In this document: positions 25,256 through 39,893 of the stretch, in pieces | How the letters are laid out: each line of letters starts with the position of its first letter | How positions within the stretch are numbered: position 1 is the stretch's first letter | Assembly: GCA_905480575.1 (NCBI GenBank) | Contig: CAJQQZ010000034.1 | Span: forward strand, 1 to 39,893 | Direction of reading: 5' to 3' | Source of the DNA: an uncultured Alphaproteobacteria bacterium | Lineage (GTDB): Bacteria > Pseudomonadota > Alphaproteobacteria > UBA7985 > CAJQQZ01 | DNA length: 39,893 nucleotides | Notes under the pieces: model-generated | The model's database searches: none | Seen by the model: the letters and a program-made list of their open reading frames with translations, nothing else | Told to the model about the DNA's origin: nothing | Position numbers and translations under genes: made by a program

Positions 25256-27202
25256 GTGAAACATCTCTTTGAACCTCTAAAAATCAGATCAGTCGAGTTG
25301 CGCAACCGTATCCTTTCGACTGGGCATCAAACCTATCTCGCCAAAAATAACCAGGTGTCTGATGAGTTGATTGCTTATCACGAAGCTAGGGCCAAAGGTG
25401 GTGTTGGTTTGATCATCACAGAGGCGGCGCGGTTTCATGAAACAGCTCTGACGCAAACACCTGAAATTCAACTGCTCTCAGACGAGGGGATCGAAGGCTA
25501 CCAACGTTTGGCTGACGCTGTACATCGTCATGGTGCCAAAATCATTTCACAGCTCTCCCATGCCGGGCGTTGTAGTGCCAGACAGATCAACGGAGTGAGG
25601 GAGGTGGTTTATGCGCCGTCCGCCGTGCCTGATCATCGCTTCCACACGATGCCGCGTGAAATGCCAGAAGAGTTGGTGACCGAAATCATTGAAGCCTGTG
25701 GGCAAGGGGCCGACCGTCTAGCGCGATCCGGCGTCGACGGTGTTGAGCTGATGGCCAGCCATGGTCTTCTCTTTGCGCAATTCCTTAATCCCTACACGAA
25801 CCGCCGCGATGATGCTTATGGCGGCGATTTTGAGCGACGCCTTCGCCCACTGGCGGACAGTCTACGGTTAGCAAGAAAGGCTGTAGGTGAAGACCGCCTT
25901 GTCGGCCTCCGTATTTCCGCCGAAGAAGGAGAAGAAGGGGGAATGGATGCAGCGCTGGTGAAGCAGGTGATTGTTGCACTGAGCGAACAAGGCTTGATTG
26001 ATTATGTCAACACGACCTTTGGTTCGATGGCAGGGTTGGGTGGCTCCATCCATGTCGTGCCACCCATGGAGATAGAGCATGGCTACTTGGCGGGGAAGTC
26101 CGCGGCGATCAAGGCTGTCACGAAATTGCCAGTGTTCGTCGCTGGTCGAATAAACCAACCGCAATTGGCGGAACAGATCTTGGCAGCGGGACAGGCCGAT
26201 GTTTGTGGCATGACAAGAGCTTTGATCACTGATCCTGAAATGCCAAACAAGGCAGCAAAGGAACAATTCGACGGCATTAAGGCCTGTATTGGCTGTAATC
26301 AGGGTTGTATTGGCCACTTTCACCAAGGAGCCTCCATTACCTGTATTCAAAACCCCTGGTCGGGGCGGGAGTTGACATTGGCTGCTCCAGCGGTGGTCAA
26401 GCGGAAAAAATCCGTTCTGGTCGCTGGTGGTGGGCCGGGAGGCTTGAAAGCCGCTCTTGTCGCGGCTGAAAGAGGCCACAAAGTTAGTCTGCATGAAGCT
26501 GGGGCCAAACTGGGTGGACAGGCTAACTTAGCGGCCATGTTGCCAGATCGATCCGAATTTGGTGGTTTGGTCACTAACCTGCAGACTGAACTGGCGACCA
26601 GCTCAGTCGAAATCGTCTTGAACTCAACAGTTGATCTTGATCTCGTTCGCAAAACTGCTCCTGATGAAACTGTTGTCGCGACTGGTTCAACGGCCTATTG
26701 GCCCGAATTAGCGGGCGAAGACGACGCTCATACTTTGGACGCTAGACAGGTTCTATCGGGAGCAAACGTTGGCTCGTCAGTCCTCGTGGCGGATTGGCGT
26801 TGTGACTGGGTGGGCATAGGCATCGCTGAAAAGCTAGCAAGAGAAGGTCACTATGTTCGGTTGGCAGTCAATGGTTTGCATCCAGGCCAGGAACTACAAC
26901 CCTATTTGAGGGATACTCTTGCAGCCAAGCTGCACAAGACAGGCGTTGAGATAATTCCTTACGCTCGGGTTATGGGCCTAGACAGCGAGACCGCCTACCT
27001 AACCCATATAGCCTCTGGAGAACACATCATCTTAGAAGGGGTGGACACAACAGTTCTCGCCTACGGTGGTAAAGCGGAAAGAACGCTGGAGCTTGAGCTC
27101 AGAAATGCGGGGATTGCTCATCATTTGATTGGCGATTGCCTTTCCCCCCGGACTGCAGAGGAGGCTGTCTTGGAAGGAGCTAAGGTTGGGCTTAAGTTGT
27201 AA
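25256..27202 (+). CDS. OYE/[4Fe-4S] flavoprotein of the DgcA/StcD N-demethylase type
   Basis: A 648-residue NADH:flavin oxidoreductase in the TMADH/2,4-dienoyl-CoA reductase superfamily. An OYE barrel (1-335; NRILSTGHQTYLAK, ELMASHGLLFAQFLNPYTNR) is followed by the cluster motif C-x2-C-x3-C with a fourth cysteine in ITCIQNP, then FAD/NAD domains with LVAGGGPGGLKAAL and a closing IGDCLSPRTAEEAV. The RILSTGH start resembles dimethylglycine and N-methylproline (stachydrine) demethylases rather than dienoyl reductases. GTG start with AAGGA upstream. It probably demethylates an amine imported or processed by the neighbours. Substrate not determined. Confidence 0.78.
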   Translation: MKHLFEPLKIRSVELRNRILSTGHQTYLAKNNQVSDELIAYHEARAKGGVGLIITEAARFHETALTQTPEIQLLSDEGIEGYQRLADAVHRHGAKIISQLSHAGRCSARQINGVREVVYAPSAVPDHRFHTMPREMPEELVTEIIEACGQGADRLARSGVDGVELMASHGLLFAQFLNPYTNRRDDAYGGDFERRLRPLADSLRLARKAVGEDRLVGLRISAEEGEEGGMDAALVKQVIVALSEQGLIDYVNTTFGSMAGLGGSIHVVPPMEIEHGYLAGKSAAIKAVTKLPVFVAGRINQPQLAEQILAAGQADVCGMTRALITDPEMPNKAAKEQFDGIKACIGCNQGCIGHFHQGASITCIQNPWSGRELTLAAPAVVKRKKSVLVAGGGPGGLKAALVAAERGHKVSLHEAGAKLGGQANLAAMLPDRSEFGGLVTNLQTELATSSVEIVLNSTVDLDLVRKTAPDETVVATGSTAYWPELAGEDDAHTLDARQVLSGANVGSSVLVADWRCDWVGIGIAEKLAREGHYVRLAVNGLHPGQELQPYLRDTLAAKLHKTGVEIIPYARVMGLDSETAYLTHIASGEHIILEGVDTTVLAYGGKAERTLELELRNAGIAHHLIGDCLSPRTAEEAVLEGAKVGLKL

Positions 27203-27221
27203 GCATAAGGATTAGATTGTA

Positions 27222-27734
27222 GTGGCCACGACAGAACCTTCAAAAACTTACTTGAAAACCCTTTTGCAGTATTATGAAGAAGAGATTGAAGGAGCAGCAT
27301 ACTTTGATACTTTGGCAGAACGTTTGAACGAACCAGATCAAAGGAAGAAGATGGTTTTGATGGCCGATGTTGAACGCTATGCTTCGGCGGCCGTTGAACC
27401 TTTGCTTGAGAAATATGATCTGAAACCGCAGGCGAAAGAACAGCTTTTTAAGTCAGGGAACAACCAGGCTACTGCTTCCTCCCTTAATTGGACCGCAATA
27501 CTAGAGGGAATGATCAAAACATTTCCTGGCTATATTGAGATGTTCAAGGATCTCGAAGCCATGGCCCCGGCTGAAGATCGGCCTATGCTTGAGGTCTTGA
27601 CCGCCCATGAAGTGGCGGCACTGGAGTTTTTACATTTGGAGTCACAGCTTGATCCTTCGTCAACTTTGCCGATGATGCACTATCTCAAAACTGGGACGGC
27701 TGAGACGCCTGGCGACGCTAAAGAGCAAACCTGA
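27222..27734 (+). CDS. Ferritin-like all-helical protein of unknown function
   Basis: A 170-residue, predicted all-alpha protein starting with GTG. Helix 1 has YYEEEIEGAAYF, a middle helix MADVERYASAAVEPLL, and a late helix TAHEVAALEFLHLE. These carboxylates and histidines at helix spacing recall diiron ferritin-like/rubrerythrin folds. I do not recognise a named family. It lies 19 bases after the DgcA-like flavoprotein gene and before a GFA-family gene, so it likely works in the same amine pathway, perhaps as a small oxygenase, peroxide-handling or electron-carrier protein. All of that is inference. Confidence 0.6.
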   Translation: MATTEPSKTYLKTLLQYYEEEIEGAAYFDTLAERLNEPDQRKKMVLMADVERYASAAVEPLLEKYDLKPQAKEQLFKSGNNQATASSLNWTAILEGMIKTFPGYIEMFKDLEAMAPAEDRPMLEVLTAHEVAALEFLHLESQLDPSSTLPMMHYLKTGTAETPGDAKEQT

Positions 27735-27768
27735 TTTCTCTGGCGAAAGACTTAGAGAACAAAAACTA

Positions 27769-28209
27769 ATGAGGAACGAAGAGATCGCGATTGTACTTAC
27801 TGGACGGTGCTACTGTGGAGCTATCACTTTCACAATGACCCAAAAGCCGCAAACAGTTGCCTATTGTCATTGCGACGATTGTCGGCGGGCAACAGGTGGG
27901 CCGGTTGCAGCCTTTGCCGCTATGGATGAAAGGGCGGTAAACTTTTCTCCAGATGAGGGTCGGTTAGTGAACGCAAACCCGGGTGTGAAACGTACATTCT
28001 GTTCTGATTGTGGGTCGTCACTGACTGGGCGCTACGACTACCTCCCTGGGCAAGTTTACATATCGCTGGGCGTTATTGATCAAGCCAACGATCTCGCACC
28101 CGAAATTCACTCCCACGAGTCAGAGCGATTTACATGGCTTCACATTGATGATGATTTAGAACGGATTGCATCAACAGCGCGTTCTGAGATTAACGATGCA
28201 GCTGTCTAG
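27769..28209 (+). CDS. GFA-family (CENP-V/GFA) zinc protein
   Basis: A 146-residue protein with the zinc-cysteine pattern GRCYCGAITF, YCHCDDCRRATGG and FCSDCGSSLTG, the signature of the glutathione-dependent formaldehyde-activating family. Only some members truly act on S-hydroxymethylglutathione. Formaldehyde would be released by the demethylases around it, so the family fits the context. It ends four bases inside the convergent gene at 28206. Confidence 0.8.
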   Translation: MRNEEIAIVLTGRCYCGAITFTMTQKPQTVAYCHCDDCRRATGGPVAAFAAMDERAVNFSPDEGRLVNANPGVKRTFCSDCGSSLTGRYDYLPGQVYISLGVIDQANDLAPEIHSHESERFTWLHIDDDLERIASTARSEINDAAV

Positions 28210-28538
28210 TCTAGATCTCGCCAGAAAAGAAATATAGGTTCTCTAACAGCGGAAACGACATGGTTATGCGGCTGTATCGCGGGCCCAATATTACGCAAGA
28301 TCTCTTCGTAAGCCGCTTCAGACTGGTCTCTATCCCGAAAGGACATGATCGCAAAATAGCGCTGTTTACGATCTGTATCCGTGTCCAGGTTGGATTGAGG
28401 CTCACGCAAACCAAGAGGGCTCGTTGATACGACAAGATCTTGCTTCGACAATCTCGCTACAAGAGTGCGATAGTCCTGTTTAAACTGCTCAATTGTGTGG
28501 CCTTCGTTGAGGTCAAACCATGACAACATATGGTACAT
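28206..28538 (-). CDS. Small alpha+beta protein, third gene of the BetI-like operon
   Basis: A 110-residue protein beginning MYHMLSWFDLNEG and containing a YFAIMSFRDRDQSEAAYEEI stretch. The pattern recalls dimeric ferredoxin-like barrels (EthD/Dabb type), but I cannot name the family. It follows the TMADH-like gene on the minus strand by nine bases and is surely in the same operon. A role as a small accessory or isomerase-like enzyme is possible; nothing in the sequence proves it. Confidence 0.65.
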   Translation of the reverse strand: MYHMLSWFDLNEGHTIEQFKQDYRTLVARLSKQDLVVSTSPLGLREPQSNLDTDTDRKQRYFAIMSFRDRDQSEAAYEEILRNIGPAIQPHNHVVSAVREPIFLFWRDLD

Positions 28539-28547
28539 CTCGATCTC

Positions 28548-30605
28548 CTAAACCTGAACAACCTGGTCTCGTCTGACAGTCAGGTGATAGCTTTCCGGTT
28601 CTTCCAGTTCTCTTGCGTATTTATGACCTGCATAAACGGCTGTCGCAATGATACCTGGCGCGAGACAATCGCCAATGCGCTGAATAGATTTGATTGTTGT
28701 ATTCTTTGTTTGAACCAAAGTCTGTGTTTCATAGAACAAACTATCGTTGGGCAGTCTCGCGGTGACTAGCACCAGGGCGTCCGCTTCGACTTCTCTTTCT
28801 TTACCGCTGTAGGAACAGGCAAGTTTGGTGAGTGAGCTATCAACGGATGTCAAGTTGTGGGCGAGAAGAAGATTAATACCGAGTTCCATCAAACGGGCCT
28901 GAGTTCTTGCTTGTTCGCTGGTGTAGCTAGTGAACGGTGCAACACAGTTGTCTGGCGTTACATAGGTGACTTCACGGCCCTCCAACTTAAGGCGCTCGGC
29001 TAGAACGGCAGCCATGTAGTAACCATCGTCATCGAAAACAACAACACGCCCTTTTGGAAGACGGCCACTCATAATATCGTCGGGGGTGAAGATCCGAGCC
29101 TGGTTGGACAGCTTCGGTATCCCCTTTTGATTAGAACGCCCGAGACCATCGGCACGCCAAGTTGAGCCGGTTGCAATGGCGATGTGTTCAACGTCTGCCT
29201 CAAGGATGTTTTTAGAGGTGAGTTTGCTTTCAAGGAAGGTATCAACAGTTGTCATTGTTTGGAGCTTCAGGAGACGATGGTCTTTGACCCTTGCCCATTC
29301 GCTCAAGCCTGGCAATCGCGATTCAAAATTCACTCTGCCGCCTAACTCACTCGACGCTTCAGACAACATGACAGTGTATCCACGCTGGCCCAGGGACATA
29401 GCACACTCCATCCCGGCAGGTCCGCCGCCAACGACAAGTACGTTGGCATTCGATTTTTTGGGCTGAATTTTTTCAGGATGCCAACCACGACGCCATTCTT
29501 CGCCCATGGTCGGGTTTTGCGTGCAGCGAATGGGAACACCCTGGCCGTCTCCAGAATAACAAATGTTGCAACCGATGCACTCGCGGATTTCATCAATCCG
29601 TCCTTCTTCGATTTTCTTTGGCAAAAAGGGATCGGCGATTGAAGGGCGGGCAGCCCCAATGAAATCAACAATGCCACGCTTTATCTGCGAGACCATCGTG
29701 TCGGGTGACGTAAAACGACCAACTGTAACAACCGGCTTTGATGTCGCCGATTTCACGAATTGAACATAGGGTTCAAGCGCGCCCTGTTTGACGAAACGAG
29801 ACACACCCATCTCGTAAGAATAGTCTCTGACACTGACGTCCCAAAGGTCCGGAAGTTCCGCCAGAAGAGAGAACATCTCGCGGCTTTCTTTTTGAACCGG
29901 TGTTCCGTCGGCACCGCCGCCATCGTCGATTGAGAAACGGACGGCGACGGCACATTTCTCCCCCACCGCTTCTTTGGTTTCTTCAATCAGTTCCCGCACG
30001 ATACGTGTACGGTTTTCTATTGAGCCTCCATACTCGTCTGTCCTGCTGTTGACGTCCGCTCTTAAGAAATTTGATAACAAGTAGCCGTGGGTGGCGTAGA
30101 CATAGATGATATCAAAACCTGCCTGCTTTGCTCTAATTGCGGCGTCGCGGTGCCATTGGCGCAAGTTCTTTATGTCTTGTTTGTCCATGGCTCTGCTTTG
30201 TGCTGGGTAACCGTTAGCGATAGGCAGACTGGCGATATCCATGCCAACTTCGCGGGTGTAGAGGTTGTCAGAACGGCTGCCGCCATGCCACAGCTCAACC
30301 CCTGCCAGTGCGCCATGCGCATGGACTGCATCGGTCATCATGGCATTGGCCTTTACGTCGGCATCATCCCAGAGGCTGGCATAAGGGAAGGGCAGATCGT
30401 CCGAGGTTGGATGGATGGAACAATACTCGGTGTTCACCACACCCCAGCCGCCCTCTGCCTTGATGCCACGCATTGTAGCCAGCGTATTAGGACGCAGCCA
30501 TCCCATACCCGTACAATGCGGTACTTGATAGAATCTGTTTTTTGCCTGCACTGGTCCAATCTTGACGGGTTCGAACAGAATATCGTAGCGGGTGTCACCA
30601 GCCAT
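28548..30605 (-). CDS. TMADH/DMADH-like iron-sulfur flavoprotein
   Basis: A 685-residue member of the trimethylamine/dimethylamine dehydrogenase group. The barrel starts YDILFEPVKIGPVQAKNRFY; active-site segments IIYVYATHGYLLSNF and RTDEYGGSIENR follow; the [4Fe-4S] motif is ECIGCNICYSG with a fourth cysteine in IRCTQNPTMGEEW; the C-terminal part has VVGGGPAGMECA and ends IGDCLAPGIIATAVYAGH. The ATG at 30605 lies five bases after a strong GGAGG, so upstream in-frame ATGs are not needed. It sits between betI-like and a small gene in one operon and is paralogous to the gene at 31520. Probably an oxidative N-demethylase; substrate unknown. Confidence 0.82.
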   Translation of the reverse strand: MAGDTRYDILFEPVKIGPVQAKNRFYQVPHCTGMGWLRPNTLATMRGIKAEGGWGVVNTEYCSIHPTSDDLPFPYASLWDDADVKANAMMTDAVHAHGALAGVELWHGGSRSDNLYTREVGMDIASLPIANGYPAQSRAMDKQDIKNLRQWHRDAAIRAKQAGFDIIYVYATHGYLLSNFLRADVNSRTDEYGGSIENRTRIVRELIEETKEAVGEKCAVAVRFSIDDGGGADGTPVQKESREMFSLLAELPDLWDVSVRDYSYEMGVSRFVKQGALEPYVQFVKSATSKPVVTVGRFTSPDTMVSQIKRGIVDFIGAARPSIADPFLPKKIEEGRIDEIRECIGCNICYSGDGQGVPIRCTQNPTMGEEWRRGWHPEKIQPKKSNANVLVVGGGPAGMECAMSLGQRGYTVMLSEASSELGGRVNFESRLPGLSEWARVKDHRLLKLQTMTTVDTFLESKLTSKNILEADVEHIAIATGSTWRADGLGRSNQKGIPKLSNQARIFTPDDIMSGRLPKGRVVVFDDDGYYMAAVLAERLKLEGREVTYVTPDNCVAPFTSYTSEQARTQARLMELGINLLLAHNLTSVDSSLTKLACSYSGKEREVEADALVLVTARLPNDSLFYETQTLVQTKNTTIKSIQRIGDCLAPGIIATAVYAGHKYARELEEPESYHLTVRRDQVVQV

Positions 30606-30621
30606 GTTGGCCTCCGAAAAG

Positions 30622-31272
30622 TTACAGCGGTTGGAGTGGGAAATGTTGTGGGAAAACTTCTGACAAATATTCGAAAGCATCAACCCTTGCCGATTGGCGA
30701 GTGACAGTTTCTGGGTACAGCAGCATGCTCAACCAAAGGCCGTCGATTAAAGCTTCGAATCGTTGCGCGATAGCACTGGGTTTGGCTAACAAGTAACCAC
30801 CCTCTTCGTTGATCTGGGAACAGAGCCGTTCTATTTCACCGCCACGCTCCCCATCAAACTGACTACATATCTCGAGATAAAGAGGGCGATAATTGGCATG
30901 GGCCCAAAAAGAAAACCAAACAGCAAGCTTTTGTGGTGAGACAATCTCCAACTTGAAGTCAACTTCAACGATGGCAGCCAACCGGGCATTTGCGTCGTTA
31001 GGCGCGTTTTTTATACCTTCTAACCAAAGCCGATAGTGCTGCTCCGCAAGGAAACGAAGGGTTTCTTCGAGCAGGTTTTCTTTACTTGGGAAATGTAAGT
31101 TTACAGTACCGTGGGCGACGCCAGCACGTTTGGCGACAGAACCAAGAGTGGTGTTTGACATACCTAACTCAGCGATTGAAGCGATGGTCGCATCAATTAG
31201 TTGTCTTCGACGAACCTCTTTACTTTCTGTTCTGCGTTTGGGTTTTTCCACTAAAATGTTTGAGTTTTTCAT
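30622..31272 (-). CDS. BetI-like TetR-family repressor
   Basis: A 216-residue TetR-family protein: helix-turn-helix RRQLIDATIASIAELGMSN through VAKRAGVAHGTVNLHFPSKE, then a BetI-type ligand domain with KLAVWFSFWAHANYRPLY and EALIDGLWLSMLL. BetI responds to choline. This homolog heads a minus-strand operon with a TMADH-like gene 16 bases downstream and is divergent from a second demethylase operon, so it probably controls both from the dyad at 31357. The ligand is likely a quaternary or tertiary amine, by inference. Confidence 0.8.
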   Translation of the reverse strand: MKNSNILVEKPKRRTESKEVRRRQLIDATIASIAELGMSNTTLGSVAKRAGVAHGTVNLHFPSKENLLEETLRFLAEQHYRLWLEGIKNAPNDANARLAAIVEVDFKLEIVSPQKLAVWFSFWAHANYRPLYLEICSQFDGERGGEIERLCSQINEEGGYLLAKPSAIAQRFEALIDGLWLSMLLYPETVTRQSARVDAFEYLSEVFPQHFPLQPL

Positions 31273-31356
31273 GAAACGGCTTTTCGAGTTTCCATTGACG
31301 AGTCTTGGACTACCGGACGGTTTGGTCGGAGGAGTAATAAGAAATTATATTGACTG

Positions 31357-31370
31357 ACTGATCATTCAGT
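31357..31370. promoter_or_regulatory. Dyad ACTGA-TCAT-TCAGT, candidate operator of the BetI-like repressor
   Basis: Perfect five-base arms around TCAT lie inside TTGACTGACTGATCATTCAG and the following TGATTGA, in the 247-base gap between the divergent betI-like gene and the demethylase operon. TetR-family repressors bind such dyads, and the ATTGA flanks resemble known BetI boxes. The rest of the gap has no gene. Confidence 0.5.
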
Positions 31371-31519
31371 GATTGATAAGTGGAGAACGATGTTAAGTCA
31401 ATTCGCAATGAGCCTTCAAAGAACCTACGGATCCTCGATTTTCATGAGTTGGTTCAAAGATTTCGGGCAGATCTTTGTGGTTGGGCTCAACGGAAGAACA
31501 CGGGGTTGTAGAGAATTTA

Positions 31520-33412
31520 ATGGAAGCACATCACAAAATCCTTTTTGAGCCGGTTAGAATTGGACCCAAAGTCGCTCGAAACCGTTTCTATCAAGTGCCA
31601 CACTGCAACGGTATGGGCCATCGTTGGCCTCGCACTATGGCTGAGATGCGCGGCGTCAAAGCGGAAGGAGGATGGGCCGTTGTTTGTACAGAAGAATGCT
31701 CGATCCATCCAACCAGTGACCTGACGCCAGCGACCCTTATGCGCCTTTGGGATGACAGCGATTTACCTGTCCATGAGTTGATGGTGAACAAGGTTCATGA
31801 ACATGGATCGCTAGCGGGCATCCAGTTGGTTCACAATGGCCAGTCGGTTAGTAACTATCTCACGCGTATGCCCTCGATGGCGCCCTCCGCTGCACCTACT
31901 GACGCCTACAACTCTACACAAGCCAGAGCAATGGACAAGGCTGATATTAAAGCCTTTCGCGGCTGGTATAAAGAGGCTGCGCTTCGAGCCAAACGTGCGG
32001 GCTATGACATTGTCTACGTTTACGCTGCCCACGGCATCATGACTTTGCTCTACCAGTTTCTGGTTCCGCGCTTCAACCATCGAACTGATGAGTACGGCGG
32101 TACTTTAAAGAACCGAGTGCGCCTGGTGCGAGAAGTGTTGGAGGACACTAGAGAGGCTGTTGGCGGTGAATGTGCGATTGCTTTTAGGTTTGCGGTCGAC
32201 GAGTTGCTGGGCAAAGATGGAATGAACAAAGCAGAGGCGGAAGACATCGTCGGCGCTCTGGCTGATCTACCAGATCTTTGGGATGTCAATGTTGCGGACT
32301 GGGCCAATGATTCTCTACCGTCTCGATTTGGCAGCGAAGGGTTTCAAGAAGATTACATCAAATTTGTGAAGAACATTACCGACAAACCTGTCGTTGGCGT
32401 GGGCCGTTTTACTTCACCGGATACAATGGTTTCTCAAATCAAGCGTGGGGTGTTGGATTTCATCGGTGCTGCTCGCCCTTCTATTGCTGATCCGTTTTTG
32501 CCCAACAAAATTTTAGAAGGCAGAGCGGACGAAATTCGCGAGTGTATTGGTTGTAACATGTGTACAACGGGAGACTATCTGGCTTATCCCATGCGCTGCA
32601 CCCAAAACCCAACCATGGGTGAGGAATGGCGCAAGGGCTGGCACCCGGCGAAAATTGCAAAAGCGAAATCCAAAGATCGGGTCATGGTGCTTGGCGGTGG
32701 TCCAGCCGGTCTTGAAGCCGCATTGGCTTTGTCAAACCGTGGTTATGAAGTTACCTTGGCAGAAGCGAAAGCAGAGTTGGGTGGACGTGTCGTTCAGGAA
32801 AGTAATCTGAAGCCTCTTTCTGAATGGAAGAGGGTGAGCGATCATCGGATCCACATGCTGTCATCCCGTGGCAATGTACAGACATTTACCAATAGTTCGA
32901 TGAATGTCGATGCTCTGTTGGAAATGGGATGTGAACACATCGCTATCGCAACCGGGTCGAAATGGCGGACAGACTTGCTCGGGATCTACCATCGATTCCC
33001 ACTGGAAACGGCAGCCAAAGATATGATGATCGCACCAGAGGCTATTCTTGACGGTCAAAGACCAAAAGACCGTGTTTTGGTCTATGATGACGATCATTAT
33101 TATTTGGGGTCAGCGATCGCCGAACAGCTTGCTGAGGAAGGAGCCGAGGTTACGATTGTAACTCCTGAGGCTGATTTGGCCGGTTGGACCCACAACACAC
33201 TTGAACATGGCCATATTCACACAAGGCTCAGAGAACTCGGTGTCGAGATTATTTGTAACAAGGCCATTGCCTGCATTGAGCAAGGGAAGGTTACTCTCGA
33301 ATGCGTCTTTGTCGGCAAAGAAAGCGCTTTGGATATTGATCACATCGTTCCTGTCACGTCGCGTTCGTCAATTGATGAAACTTTTTCTGGGTTGATCAGG
33401 CGTCAGAATTAA
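31520..33412 (+). CDS. TMADH-like flavoprotein, truncated by an in-frame TAA
   Basis: A 630-residue product of the same family as the gene at 28548: YDIVYVYAAHGIMTLLYQFL, RTDEYGGTLKNR, ECIGCNMCTTGD, MRCTQNPTMGEEW, VLGGGPAGLEAALAL. The ATG at 31520 begins right at the conserved KILFEPVRIG; an upstream ATG at 31475 adds a non-conserved tail. Translation stops at TAA 33410-33412, yet the same frame continues with the missing C-terminal flavin-binding segment (separate entry). Read through, the length is 687 codons against 685 for the intact paralog. HGIM replaces HGYL at the active site, so its substrate may differ. First gene of a five-gene operon. Confidence 0.75.
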   Translation: MEAHHKILFEPVRIGPKVARNRFYQVPHCNGMGHRWPRTMAEMRGVKAEGGWAVVCTEECSIHPTSDLTPATLMRLWDDSDLPVHELMVNKVHEHGSLAGIQLVHNGQSVSNYLTRMPSMAPSAAPTDAYNSTQARAMDKADIKAFRGWYKEAALRAKRAGYDIVYVYAAHGIMTLLYQFLVPRFNHRTDEYGGTLKNRVRLVREVLEDTREAVGGECAIAFRFAVDELLGKDGMNKAEAEDIVGALADLPDLWDVNVADWANDSLPSRFGSEGFQEDYIKFVKNITDKPVVGVGRFTSPDTMVSQIKRGVLDFIGAARPSIADPFLPNKILEGRADEIRECIGCNMCTTGDYLAYPMRCTQNPTMGEEWRKGWHPAKIAKAKSKDRVMVLGGGPAGLEAALALSNRGYEVTLAEAKAELGGRVVQESNLKPLSEWKRVSDHRIHMLSSRGNVQTFTNSSMNVDALLEMGCEHIAIATGSKWRTDLLGIYHRFPLETAAKDMMIAPEAILDGQRPKDRVLVYDDDHYYLGSAIAEQLAEEGAEVTIVTPEADLAGWTHNTLEHGHIHTRLRELGVEIICNKAIACIEQGKVTLECVFVGKESALDIDHIVPVTSRSSIDETFSGLIRRQN

Positions 33413-36357: not shown

Positions 36358-37358
36358 CACCAAAACAGGCAGGCTTTTACATGCCGGCAGAATGGACACC
36401 GCACGAACGTTGCTGGATGATGTGGCCCTGTCGTCGTGAAGTCTGGCCAGACATAGAAGCAACCATGAAGGACTTCGTGGCCGTTGCCCACGCCATTCGT
36501 GAATTCGAGCCTGTGACGATGGTTGCCCACCCAAGGGACGAAGCCATGGCTCGATCGATGTTGGGCAGCGATATCGATGTGCTGACCTCACAGATCGACG
36601 ATTCATGGTCGCGCGACGCTGGGCCTTGTTTTCTGATTGATGATCAGGGCAATCATGCTGGTGTCAATTTTGAATTCAACGCCTGGGGTGGCAAATACGC
36701 CCCTTACGATGGAGACAACCGGTTTTCATCATTCGTGCTTGAGCAGGCTGGTGTGCGTCAGTTCTCATCTAAACTGATTGCAGAGGGCGGTGGTATTTCT
36801 GTTGACGGGGAAGGGACAATTCTGACCACTGAATTTTGCTTTCCAAACTCAAACCGCAATCCAGACTGGACAAGAGAGCAAATTGAACAAGAACTGATGG
36901 AGGTGCTGGGCGGGGCGAAGGTGATCTGGTTACCAGGGGACTGGGACGAGATTGAAACGGATGGCCATGTTGATGGTATCGCGGCATTCGTTGCGCCAGG
37001 GAAAGTATTGGCGGAGATACCGGGAGATCCAAACGCTGAACATTACAACATCATGGTTGAGAACTATGAAACGTTGAAAGGCCAGACGGACGCAAGAGGT
37101 CGGGAGCTGGAGTTGGTTCAGCTGCGTGACGCCAGTGATGCGGATGCTGTCGGTGATACTTTCTGTAATTGTTACGTCAACTCATACCTGGCCAACGGTG
37201 GAGTTGTGATGCCCAAATATGATATCCCGGCCGATGAAGCCGCCGCTGAAATCTATCAAGACTTGTTTCCGGACAGAACCGTTTCTCAGGTGTCTATCAA
37301 CAACATTGCTCTTGGCGGTGGTGGCATTCACTGTATTACCCAACAACAACCGCTTTAG
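36354..37358 (+). CDS. aguA: Agmatine deiminase-family enzyme
   Basis: A 334-residue guanidine-modifying enzyme of the agmatine deiminase/PAD_porph family. DSWSRDAGPCFL, FEFNAWGGKY, TDGHVDGIAAF (H205) and the catalytic C327 in GGGGIHCITQQ are all present. Agmatine deiminase turns agmatine into N-carbamoylputrescine and ammonia. The protein is somewhat shorter than typical AguA. Its ATG overlaps the Rieske stop (ATGA), an unusual partner: it suggests that the demethylated product is a guanidine, perhaps agmatine from a methylated derivative. No N-carbamoylputrescine amidase (AguB) is in the window. Confidence 0.82.
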   Translation: MTPKQAGFYMPAEWTPHERCWMMWPCRREVWPDIEATMKDFVAVAHAIREFEPVTMVAHPRDEAMARSMLGSDIDVLTSQIDDSWSRDAGPCFLIDDQGNHAGVNFEFNAWGGKYAPYDGDNRFSSFVLEQAGVRQFSSKLIAEGGGISVDGEGTILTTEFCFPNSNRNPDWTREQIEQELMEVLGGAKVIWLPGDWDEIETDGHVDGIAAFVAPGKVLAEIPGDPNAEHYNIMVENYETLKGQTDARGRELELVQLRDASDADAVGDTFCNCYVNSYLANGGVVMPKYDIPADEAAAEIYQDLFPDRTVSQVSINNIALGGGGIHCITQQQPL

Positions 37359-37609
37359 AGCTAGCTTCCTTCCTTCCCTCAAGTTCCGGCTAGTGTGGCG
37401 TTGACCTGTGCTGTCGTAAGCGAGTTCTCATCATTGGGACTGATGTTTTGGGAATTTCCTCAGCCCTTAGCCAAAATTAAGGCACCTCTCCAAGGAACTA
37501 GCTCAATAGGATCGGCGCACCTGCAAAATTTGCCCTAAATTGGTTGCCCAGAACTGCTAGTTTTGACTCCTGCAAAGCCTGAAATTCCCCAGTGGTTATT
37601 GGGTGATTC

Positions 37610-37635
37610 GTTTTACTTGAGACTCCAAGTAAAAC
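37610..37635. repeat. Inverted repeat GTTTTACTTG-N6-CAAGTAAAAC, likely upstream activator site
   Basis: Two perfect ten-base arms flank AGACTC. The dyad is about 95-120 bases upstream of the start expected from the sigma-54 promoter, the usual place for an enhancer-binding protein. A third half-site, AAGTAAAAC, is at 37671-37679 and an inverted TTTTACTT at 37824-37831. No T-run follows, so it is not a terminator. The binding protein is not encoded in the window. Confidence 0.65.
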
Positions 37636-37703
37636 CAGGTGTATGTGCGCGGATTTCTTTATAAAATCTTAAGTAAAACAAGCAGTTGTGCCTGAAATAC
37701 TCT

Positions 37704-37719
37704 TGGCACGCCCCTTGCT
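37704..37719 (+). promoter_or_regulatory. Sigma-54 (RpoN) promoter, -24/-12 elements
   Basis: TTGGCACGCCCCTTGCT has the GG and GC dinucleotides of the -24 and -12 elements separated by exactly ten bases and matches the consensus YTGGCACG-N4-TTGCW throughout. Transcription should begin near 37730, pointing at the large exported-protein gene. Confidence 0.85.
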
Positions 37720-37908
37720 ACTTCAGTTTTATTACAATTTGTAAATATTGAGAGTTTGAGGAAAAACAAGGGGCTGACTACTTCGATAGAAGCATAAAAA
37801 GAAAAATAACAACAAGATAGAGCTTTTACTTAATCTATTGAATTAGGAAAAAAGGTACCAACTAAAAACCTTCGATACGCAATTTAGACAGCATTTTGGG
37901 GACTACCT

Positions 37909-39893
37909 GTGCATTTCGCGAATCGACTAAGCCTTTCTTTCATCCACAAAGCTTTGCGCTTTTTGGAATTGCTGGATCGAAGGGAAAAAAATACTTCTAA
38001 TTCGAGCCATTCGAGTTCTTGCAGTGTTGAGCAAGCTACCAGAATTACGCAACGTCTTGGGTCTGTGCTCAAATCGGGTTTGGCTTGTCTAGCAGCAATT
38101 CTCTTTTCTGTTGTGATTATGACGGCCCTGAGCAGTACTGCTGAGGCACAGTGTGCGTCGACGACCGGCCCCAGCCTTTGCCTGCACAAGACAAACTCAG
38201 GTATTGTTGAGCAAAATCCTGGGGCCAATGACAATCTTTATTATACCGACTGGCAGATCAAGTTGGTTAACAACGGTAACATTGCTATCGAGTGGTCGGA
38301 ATTCACCGATGATTTTCAGACTATAAATCCAACCGGGGTCGTCTTTAGTTTTGACGGTAGTTATCCCGCAGGAGGTACTAGCCCCAGTCTGATTACTTCC
38401 TTTGTTGTTACAGGATCGCCTAGTTCCACACCGACGCAAAATTCGGCGTGGAACAGTTCGACGGCCAACGAATTGTTGGTAAGCCAGTTTTCCGGCAACA
38501 GCATGGACGGTGATTCGACCAATGATACAACTCATATTACCCTACAGCCCGCCGATGAGGTCAACGTTGTCGTCAGAACCTACTATCAGCTTGCAGTTAG
38601 CACAATCTACAACGAAACAGATGCTGCTGCGCGTTACCACGATGGTACATCCTATCAACCCGTCCCAATTACCATTGCAACAGAGTCGGCTGGCGGTTTA
38701 CCAGGTGCGTTACCAAGTGCGCAAATCAAGAAACAAAGGAATCATTACGCTGAAGATGTCTACTACGACGTAGCTAGTGGGAATTTTGTTATCGATTTTA
38801 CACTACTCGTTAACAACGATGGCCCAGTACCATTGACTGATTTGTCTATTGTTGATCCTTTTTCGACGATGGACACAGAGCATGGTACATTTAGTTTGTT
38901 ATCAGCTGAAGTCACAGATACCAATGTCTACGAATTCATCGGCAGCCTTTCAACAAGTGCTTCGACAGCTCAGGACTTGACCGGGCTGACCCTAGCAGCG
39001 AACCCAGATCGCTTTGGATTGGGCAATCAAGGAACTTACGACGGAACGCCCGTTAATCCAGAGGTGCTGGATGACGGGAACCCAGCCACTGTTCCGGCAC
39101 TGGACCCAGACGAGTTGCTTGAAGTAAAAATTCGCTACATTGTTGATGCTGTTCCCGATGGAACCAGCTCAACCGCGTTGGATTGTATGGCCATCTACAA
39201 CTACTTCACCCTTAACTCCAATGGCGGCGATATCGATCTGACGACTCCGAGCGCGGCGGGTACAGCCAATGTTGCTGGCTTTTCACAACTCCACCAAGCA
39301 GTACTTTGCGAACCATCGCTCACAAAAACTTTAACTTCTATTACTCTTACATCTTTCGGTACAGGAGGGGCACCCAACGAATACACAGCCCGTTATACGA
39401 TTGATTTAAGACTGCCGTTTGGAAACAAAGGCGATGTTTCGTTACTAGACAACTACGAAACCCCCAATACAGCAATTGGTGTAGAAGTTCTCAGTACTTC
39501 GGTTGGAACCCAAGGCACTACGAGAAGATTCCGCAGATTTCCGGAATCAAATCCTTTCTATACGGTTTGGACCGACACTTGGGACGGCGAAACACCTTAT
39601 GCTGCTGGGCACACAAGCACTACCCCTAACGACGAACTTCTAAATCAAGGATCAACAATTGATCCGAGGTACATTCAATATGTCACAAGTTTCGACGTTG
39701 AATTTTCTGCAACTGACCCTAATGGCACCGTTTGTAATGACGTGACCTTTACCGCAGATTTGCCGGACGTGTTGGGAAGTTCGCAAGTACTAACATTGAC
39801 TGATACAGATGACGGTTGTGGTGGGGGAGGCGGAGCACTGCCAGGCGGTGTTCCTAGTGCACAAATCAAAAAGCAAAGAGATCACTATGCTAA
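37909..39893 (+). CDS. Large exported repeat protein with DUF11-like beta-sandwich domains (3' end outside window)
   Basis: An uninterrupted frame of 661 codons running off the window. Start GTG 37909 follows GGGGA by six bases. Residues 53-80 (VLKSGLACLAAILFSVVIMT, then ALSSTAEA, QC) are a Sec signal peptide preceded by an unusually long 52-residue lead; a GTG at 38065 would give a normal-length signal. The mature part is acidic, rich in Thr, Ser, Asn and Asp, with segments such as FVIDFTLLVNNDGPVPLTDL and YTARYTIDLRLPFGNKGDVS that resemble DUF11-like domains of surface proteins. A linker, PSAQIKKQR, recurs 380 residues apart. Probably cell-surface or secreted, perhaps adhesive; driven by the sigma-54 promoter. 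Confidence 0.8.
   Translation, partial: MHFANRLSLSFIHKALRFLELLDRREKNTSNSSHSSSCSVEQATRITQRLGSVLKSGLACLAAILFSVVIMTALSSTAEAQCASTTGPSLCLHKTNSGIVEQNPGANDNLYYTDWQIKLVNNGNIAIEWSEFTDDFQTINPTGVVFSFDGSYPAGGTSPSLITSFVVTGSPSSTPTQNSAWNSSTANELLVSQFSGNSMDGDSTNDTTHITLQPADEVNVVVRTYYQLAVSTIYNETDAAARYHDGTSYQPVPITIATESAGGLPGALPSAQIKKQRNHYAEDVYYDVASGNFVIDFTLLVNNDGPVPLTDLSIVDPFSTMDTEHGTFSLLSAEVTDTNVYEFIGSLSTSASTAQDLTGLTLAANPDRFGLGNQGTYDGTPVNPEVLDDGNPATVPALDPDELLEVKIRYIVDAVPDGTSSTALDCMAIYNYFTLNSNGGDIDLTTPSAAGTANVAGFSQLHQAVLCEPSLTKTLTSITLTSFGTGGAPNEYTARYTIDLRLPFGNKGDVSLLDNYETPNTAIGVEVLSTSVGTQGTTRRFRRFPESNPFYTVWTDTWDGETPYAAGHTSTTPNDELLNQGSTIDPRYIQYVTSFDVEFSATDPNGTVCNDVTFTADLPDVLGSSQVLTLTDTDDGCGGGGGALPGGVPSAQIKKQRDHYA
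38701..38751 (+). repeat. Linker repeat copy 1 in the exported protein
   Basis: 17 codons reading PGALPSAQIKKQRNHYA, just after a first folded region. Copy 2 lies exactly 1140 bases downstream. Many codons differ only at third positions, so the peptide, not the DNA, is conserved. Confidence 0.8.
39841..39891 (+). repeat. Linker repeat copy 2 in the exported protein
   Basis: 17 codons reading PGGVPSAQIKKQRDHYA, following a glycine run (CGGGGGAL). It matches copy 1 in 14 of 17 residues. The window ends here, so further units of about 380 residues may follow. Confidence 0.8.

Follow-up and report, generated by a model that had tools for sequence, protein, structure and literature searches.

A sigma-54 promoter of a large exported repeat protein in a probable RpoN surface regulon with CcrM-site-rich upstream regions

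How is the gene at the right-hand end of the window controlled, and which of the elements in front of it does it share with other genes? The window is the whole stretch of DNA analysed here, 39,893 nucleotides, and corresponds to all of contig C34 in a genome of 4.03 Mb and 189 contigs. An earlier, sequence-only reading had described a near-perfect -24/-12 element with a transcription start near 37730, and both points are borne out. The element TGGCACGCCCCTTGC matches the consensus TGGCAC-N5-TTGC at 10 of 10 bases with the correct GG/GC spacing, and its position predicts a +1 at about 37730, which would give a leader of about 180 nt ahead of the GTG start (Table 1). Our preferred reading, to which we assign a probability of roughly 0.72, is that this is the sigma-54 promoter of a large exported repeat protein which belongs to an RpoN surface regulon with upstream regions rich in CcrM sites.

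The encoded protein has a long N-terminal region of about 55 residues followed by a signal-peptide-like hydrophobic stretch. It had been taken for a giant DUF11-like exported protein. Large and exported it appears to be, but the reading frame (at least 661 codons) leaves the contig end before the C-terminus, where any PEP-CTERM sorting signal would sit, so 661 residues is a minimum and 'giant' is unproven, and the DUF11-type matches fall below curated cut-offs: 17.5 bits against 24 for the DUF11-type repeat model TIGR01451 and 21.5 bits against 27 for DUF7507, with no match to PF01345. We found no relatives of the protein in 61 relatives, the order, plasmids or genome contigs. A possible homology between the leader of this gene and that of the large-protein gene on contig C44 was considered and rejected, since outside the ribosome-binding and start region it was not significant over shuffled sequences. 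Elsewhere in the window, three Old Yellow Enzyme-type NADH:flavin oxidoreductases are encoded within 8 kb (25256-33412), two of which are separated by a TetR-type regulator.

Table 1. Features of the window, with the genes of the proposed RpoN set and ccrM. Positions refer to the window unless a genome contig is named.
Feature	Position	Strand	Remarks
GANTC (GACTC), third candidate CcrM site	37565..37569		farther upstream
GANTC (GATTC), candidate CcrM site	37605..37609		directly left of dyad
Perfect 10-bp inverted repeat GTTTTACTTG-agactc-CAAGTAAAAC	37610..37635		probable gene-specific operator or part of upstream activator region
GANTC (GACTC), candidate CcrM site	37621..37625		in dyad loop, 16 bp from GATTC 37605
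Half-site TTTTACTT	37671..37678	-	between dyad and promoter
Sigma-54 promoter TGGCACGCCCCTTGC	37704..37718	+	-24 TGGCAC, -12 TTGC, exact consensus
Half-site TTTTACTT	37824..37831	+	downstream of +1, within predicted 5' leader
Shine-Dalgarno-like GGGGA	37898..37902	+	direct reading; same TTTGGGGAC precedes C44 large-protein start
Large exported repeat protein, GTG start	37909..39891	+	661 aa up to contig end, truncated
ccrM, 5' part	G000:C6:1-273		contig edge; five GANTC counted upstream
rpoN	G000:C54:107621		position is that of the exact -24/-12 site, 31 bp before gene, kept in sister species
amtB, ammonium transporter			sigma-54 site upstream; transporter of marine subtype
C2 small exported protein			134 aa; sigma-54 site upstream
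C34 large exported protein (window gene)			sigma-54 site upstream
C44 large exported protein			at least 1966 aa; sigma-54 site upstream; passes PF01345 strongly
C74 large exported protein			1260 aa to in-frame stop; sigma-54 site upstream; passes PF01345 strongly
C44 pilin, spore-coat-U-type			passes PF05229; PapD-type chaperone gene next
C185 pilin, spore-coat-U-type			passes PF05229
C126 pilin, spore-coat-U-type			likeness by eye only

The pattern TGGCAYN5TTGC occurs 34 times in the genome, compared with 14 matches for a reversed control pattern. We excluded intragenic sites by means of a simple gene caller based on codon usage, whose gene calls are approximate; nine of the 34 are then intergenic and correctly oriented upstream of genes (P ~1.5e-5). 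These nine precede rpoN, the ammonium transporter gene amtB and genes for three large exported proteins, three spore-coat-U-type pilins and one small exported protein. It could be argued that the window element is a chance match, with the gene read from an unrecognised promoter and the dyad being a neutral palindrome; the control matches indicate that some matches are random, and many exact ones fall inside genes. Against this, a simple scan found no sigma-70-like site in 37340-37960, and the well-placed intergenic sites are not only enriched but precede genes that form a coherent set, and we regard a chance match as very improbable.

Comparison with a sister species, represented by one same-genus genome (G001), points in the same direction. 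Matching sites are found there before five of the nine regulon genes: those before rpoN, amtB, the C74 large-protein gene (C74/C29) and the C185 pilin gene (C185/C373) are identical, and that before the C44 large-protein gene (C44/C55) is exact with an altered spacer. An orthologue of the window gene was not found in this search, so the promoter comparison covers these five other members of the set. DUF11 proteins in other families of the order are generally not preceded by such sigma-54 sites. Taken together, the sequence comparisons give good support to the window -24/-12 element as a real sigma-54 promoter and a member of the RpoN set. Judging from its gene content, this small set serves chiefly the genes of surface proteins and pilins in this marine-type alphaproteobacterium, and the site before rpoN suggests autoregulation. 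The earlier proposal that RpoN governs a large exported protein is supported and can be widened, the predicted regulon also including pilin-like genes and other large DUF11 genes, a content that would fit a surface lifestyle or one of attachment, as had been suggested.

Three further observations concern contigs that carry members of the set. The leader of the C44/C55 large-protein gene, about 190 nt long, is much better conserved across the two species than the DNA above the promoter, and this difference suggests a functional 5' leader RNA for that gene. The C44 large DUF11 protein meets a stop (~53410) within or just before another DUF11 repeat near the contig end, which may reflect truncation or an assembly error. 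Finally, about 72 kb of contig C54 (G000:C54, parts of 20001-100000) are given as N.

A sigma-54 promoter requires an activator of the enhancer-binding type, and the sequence-only reading had postulated one that was not seen in the window. That activator may well be among the proteins of this genome, which encodes RpoN and only three true enhancer-binding proteins by PF00158 (plus one weak match). Two of these pass family cut-offs, as NtrC and NtrX, and contig C162 carries the neighbourhood ntrB-ntrC-ntrY-ntrX-trkA-hfq-hflX, an indication of an alphaproteobacterium, as are the CcrM gene and the depletion of GANTC in coding DNA. The third is nearest to LuxO, at 635.7 bits against a Vibrio LuxO cut-off of 800, and its gene (G000:C154:12741-14228) is interrupted by one in-frame TAA near the Walker A region. 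The sister species has an uninterrupted orthologue with 94% identity; the TAA may be a sequencing error or a real nonsense change. The three activators are therefore of the NtrC, NtrX and LuxO types, the last with the reservations just given. None is a PrsR-type response regulator by TIGR02915, the best of the three reaching 366.9 bits against a cut-off of 502.6. We also considered the LuxO-like regulator as the binder of a motif, TGGANTCG, and rejected this; the copy upstream of its gene is unconserved in the sister species and the region scores below most controls.

The dyad had been read as a control element of the promoter, with further copies to be looked for beside other sigma-54 promoters. 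It is certainly present: the repeat is perfect, its centre lies about 107 bp upstream of the predicted +1 (about 100 bases had been claimed), and both of the extra half-sites, at 37671 and 37824, are where they had been placed. As a regulon enhancer it does not survive, however. A search of the whole 4.03 Mb genome for the 18-base core, allowing as many as three mismatches, returned the window dyad as the sole match, so that the further dyads expected beside other sigma-54 promoters are absent. Given this single copy, half-sites that are not conserved at related promoters, and a shared feature that is instead GANTC, we conclude that the dyad is not the shared enhancer of the regulon. Nor did it emerge as a regulon motif more widely: among about 85,000 genomes scanned there were 29 matches, four in Janthinobacterium fluminis and the rest scattered. 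In Janthinobacterium fluminis the core GTTTTACTTG-N6-CAAGTAAAAC lies midway in a long, REP-like repeated palindrome which starts GGGGTCAGGTCTAGACATGG, is present in at least four copies and is unrelated to sigma-54. Perfect intergenic inverted repeats with arms of at least 10 are not rare in the genome of the window, where 14 were found; most resemble GC-rich terminators, and the window dyad has the lowest GC of all (0.35). A role as a transcription terminator was rejected, as no T run follows it and its RNA does not fold better than shuffled sequences do (z-score -0.55).

What the dyad might do at this one gene can be read in two ways. The first is that it is the site of this gene's own sigma-54 activator, with the half-sites as auxiliary contacts and the GANTC sites incidental. 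A perfect palindrome at this position has a normal enhancer distance, and the local cluster of at least three TTTTACTT inside 250 bp was seen nowhere else in the approximately 0.8 Mb of genome examined (P ~5e-6). Set against these points, a single copy in the genome is hard to square with three activators serving at least nine promoters, and an exact half-site near the C44 promoter is missing from its orthologue; we think this reading somewhat unlikely. The second is that a dimeric repressor, or some other regulator superimposed on the sigma-54 promoter, uses the dyad as an operator specific to this gene. The half-sites stand on either side of the promoter, one of them in the leader, as would suit a looping or roadblock repressor, and uniqueness in the genome suits a regulator with a single target. 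We found no candidate regulator, though, and no orthologue of the gene from which conservation could be judged, and the operator is accordingly only a tentative possibility, if a slightly better one than the activator site. In either case the dyad is a real local feature, with a gene-specific operator as its likeliest role.

What the promoters do have in common is GANTC, which is the methylation site of CcrM. The seven surface promoters contain 24 GANTC in 1400 bp (seven 200-bp regions), where the rate in 67 kb of this genome's intergenic DNA predicts 4.8 (P 4e-10, or 3.5e-9 with the window left out), an enrichment that is partly post hoc because it came from a motif search and was tested on largely the same promoters. 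Among all gapped 4-base words GANTC is the most enriched, the next reaching 2.7e-4. Pairs of GANTC 15-17 bp apart are also in excess (5 observed against 0.97 expected, P 0.002), and in each of three orthologous promoter pairs one or two GANTC keep their offset from the -24 element while their flanks have diverged. One such pair lies in the window, with GATTC 37605 just outside the left arm of the dyad and GACTC 37621 in the loop; the window promoter's count of three GANTC within 200 bp above -24 is only mildly unusual (P 0.03). The rpoN and amtB promoters have one GANTC each. GANTC is also depleted in coding relative to intergenic DNA (1.7 vs 3.5 per kb), which fits the pattern. Two observations temper it: clusters also occur upstream of genes with no sigma-54 site, and the excess in three surface promoters of the sister genome is weak (P 0.06).

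The motif search itself was unsupervised and covered 200-220 bp above the -24 elements, with the C185 promoter outside the discovery set. It returned TGGAGTCG, with GANTC as its core, above shuffled controls at most widths, and a similar motif came back in 6 of 7 leave-one-out runs. Held-out promoters that scored well with this motif were those of C74, the C44 pilin and C126; those of C185, the window gene and the C44 large protein did not score well. The window sequence TGGAGTCT, at GACTC 37621, is a weak match to TGGAGTCG and on its own is not significant: with the window held out, 18 of the 62 controls reached as good a score. A likeness between the dyad region of the window and the GANTC pair in the putative enhancer of the C44 pilin gene was likewise rejected, being not significant beyond GANTC itself.

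CcrM is encoded in the genome, the start of its gene matching PDB 6pbd (3e-33). The enrichment could in principle have to do with an additional sigma-70 promoter in these regions, under GcrA/CcrM control, and not with a sigma-54 enhancer. GANTC methylation does boost GcrA binding in Caulobacter (PMC3667746), but the simple scan of the window region yielded no sigma-70-like site, and we judge this explanation to be decidedly unlikely. We return, then, to the sigma-54 promoter with its GANTC-rich upstream region, which is the best candidate for the enhancer. In the mechanism that we envisage, sigma-54 RNA polymerase would bind the -24/-12 element and start near the predicted +1, activated by an enhancer-binding protein acting from sites about 60-140 bp upstream of the start. 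The activator would most likely be NtrX or the LuxO-like protein, NtrC being less likely, and the GANTC-packed region would serve as the enhancer. Since CcrM methylates GANTC, sensitivity to methylation suggests itself as a hypothesis: binding of the activator, or of a repressor, at GANTC would probably respond to methylation, by analogy with GcrA (PMC3667746) and MucR (PMC5172544). The methylation state would then couple surface-protein expression either to the cell cycle or to a heritable on/off state.

Each part of this arrangement has counterparts in known systems. In floc-forming bacteria, the PEP-CTERM surface protein genes governed by PrsK/PrsR are RpoN-dependent and are involved in aggregation (PMC9850573). 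The likeness is that RpoN drives exported surface proteins; the difference is that DUF11-type repeat proteins and spore-coat-U pilins take their place here and that none of the activators passes the PrsR cut-off. The methylation-dependent CcrM/GcrA promoters of Alphaproteobacteria resemble the present ones in that GANTC is concentrated in promoters and CcrM is encoded, and the window promoter, with three GANTC within 200 bp of -24 in a CcrM-encoding genome, has the features of that class; GcrA, however, targets mainly cell-cycle genes (PMC3667746), whereas the promoters considered here are sigma-54 promoters of surface genes. MucR shields hypomethylated GANTC promoters in which GANTC overlaps regulator sites and responds to regulator occupancy (PMC5172544), as might also be the case here, but the text of that study contains neither sigma-54 nor RpoN.

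Taken separately, sigma-54 promoters and methylation by CcrM are both familiar. The combination of GANTC, CcrM and sigma-54 was not found in the full-text literature beyond a Paracoccus genome description, with few uses of each term. A further parallel is the switching of pap pili by Dam/Lrp in Escherichia coli, in which paired methylation sites lie within activator sites upstream of adhesive-pilus genes. Paired methylation sites upstream of pilus genes are common to both; the methylase and the regulator are different, and switching in the present organism is hypothetical. The full extension of the idea, an epigenetic sigma-54 surface regulon in which paired GANTC in the enhancers of pilin and large-protein genes make surface display methylation-dependent and either cell-cycle-timed or heritable, is speculative and on present evidence rather unlikely. 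It does give a direct, genome-wide prediction for methylome data. With promoters so unusually rich in GANTC, surface display in this organism may follow the cell cycle or an on/off switch, and if the enhancers are methylation-sensitive, the regulon would be an alphaproteobacterial equivalent of the pilus switches that Dam controls in enteric bacteria.
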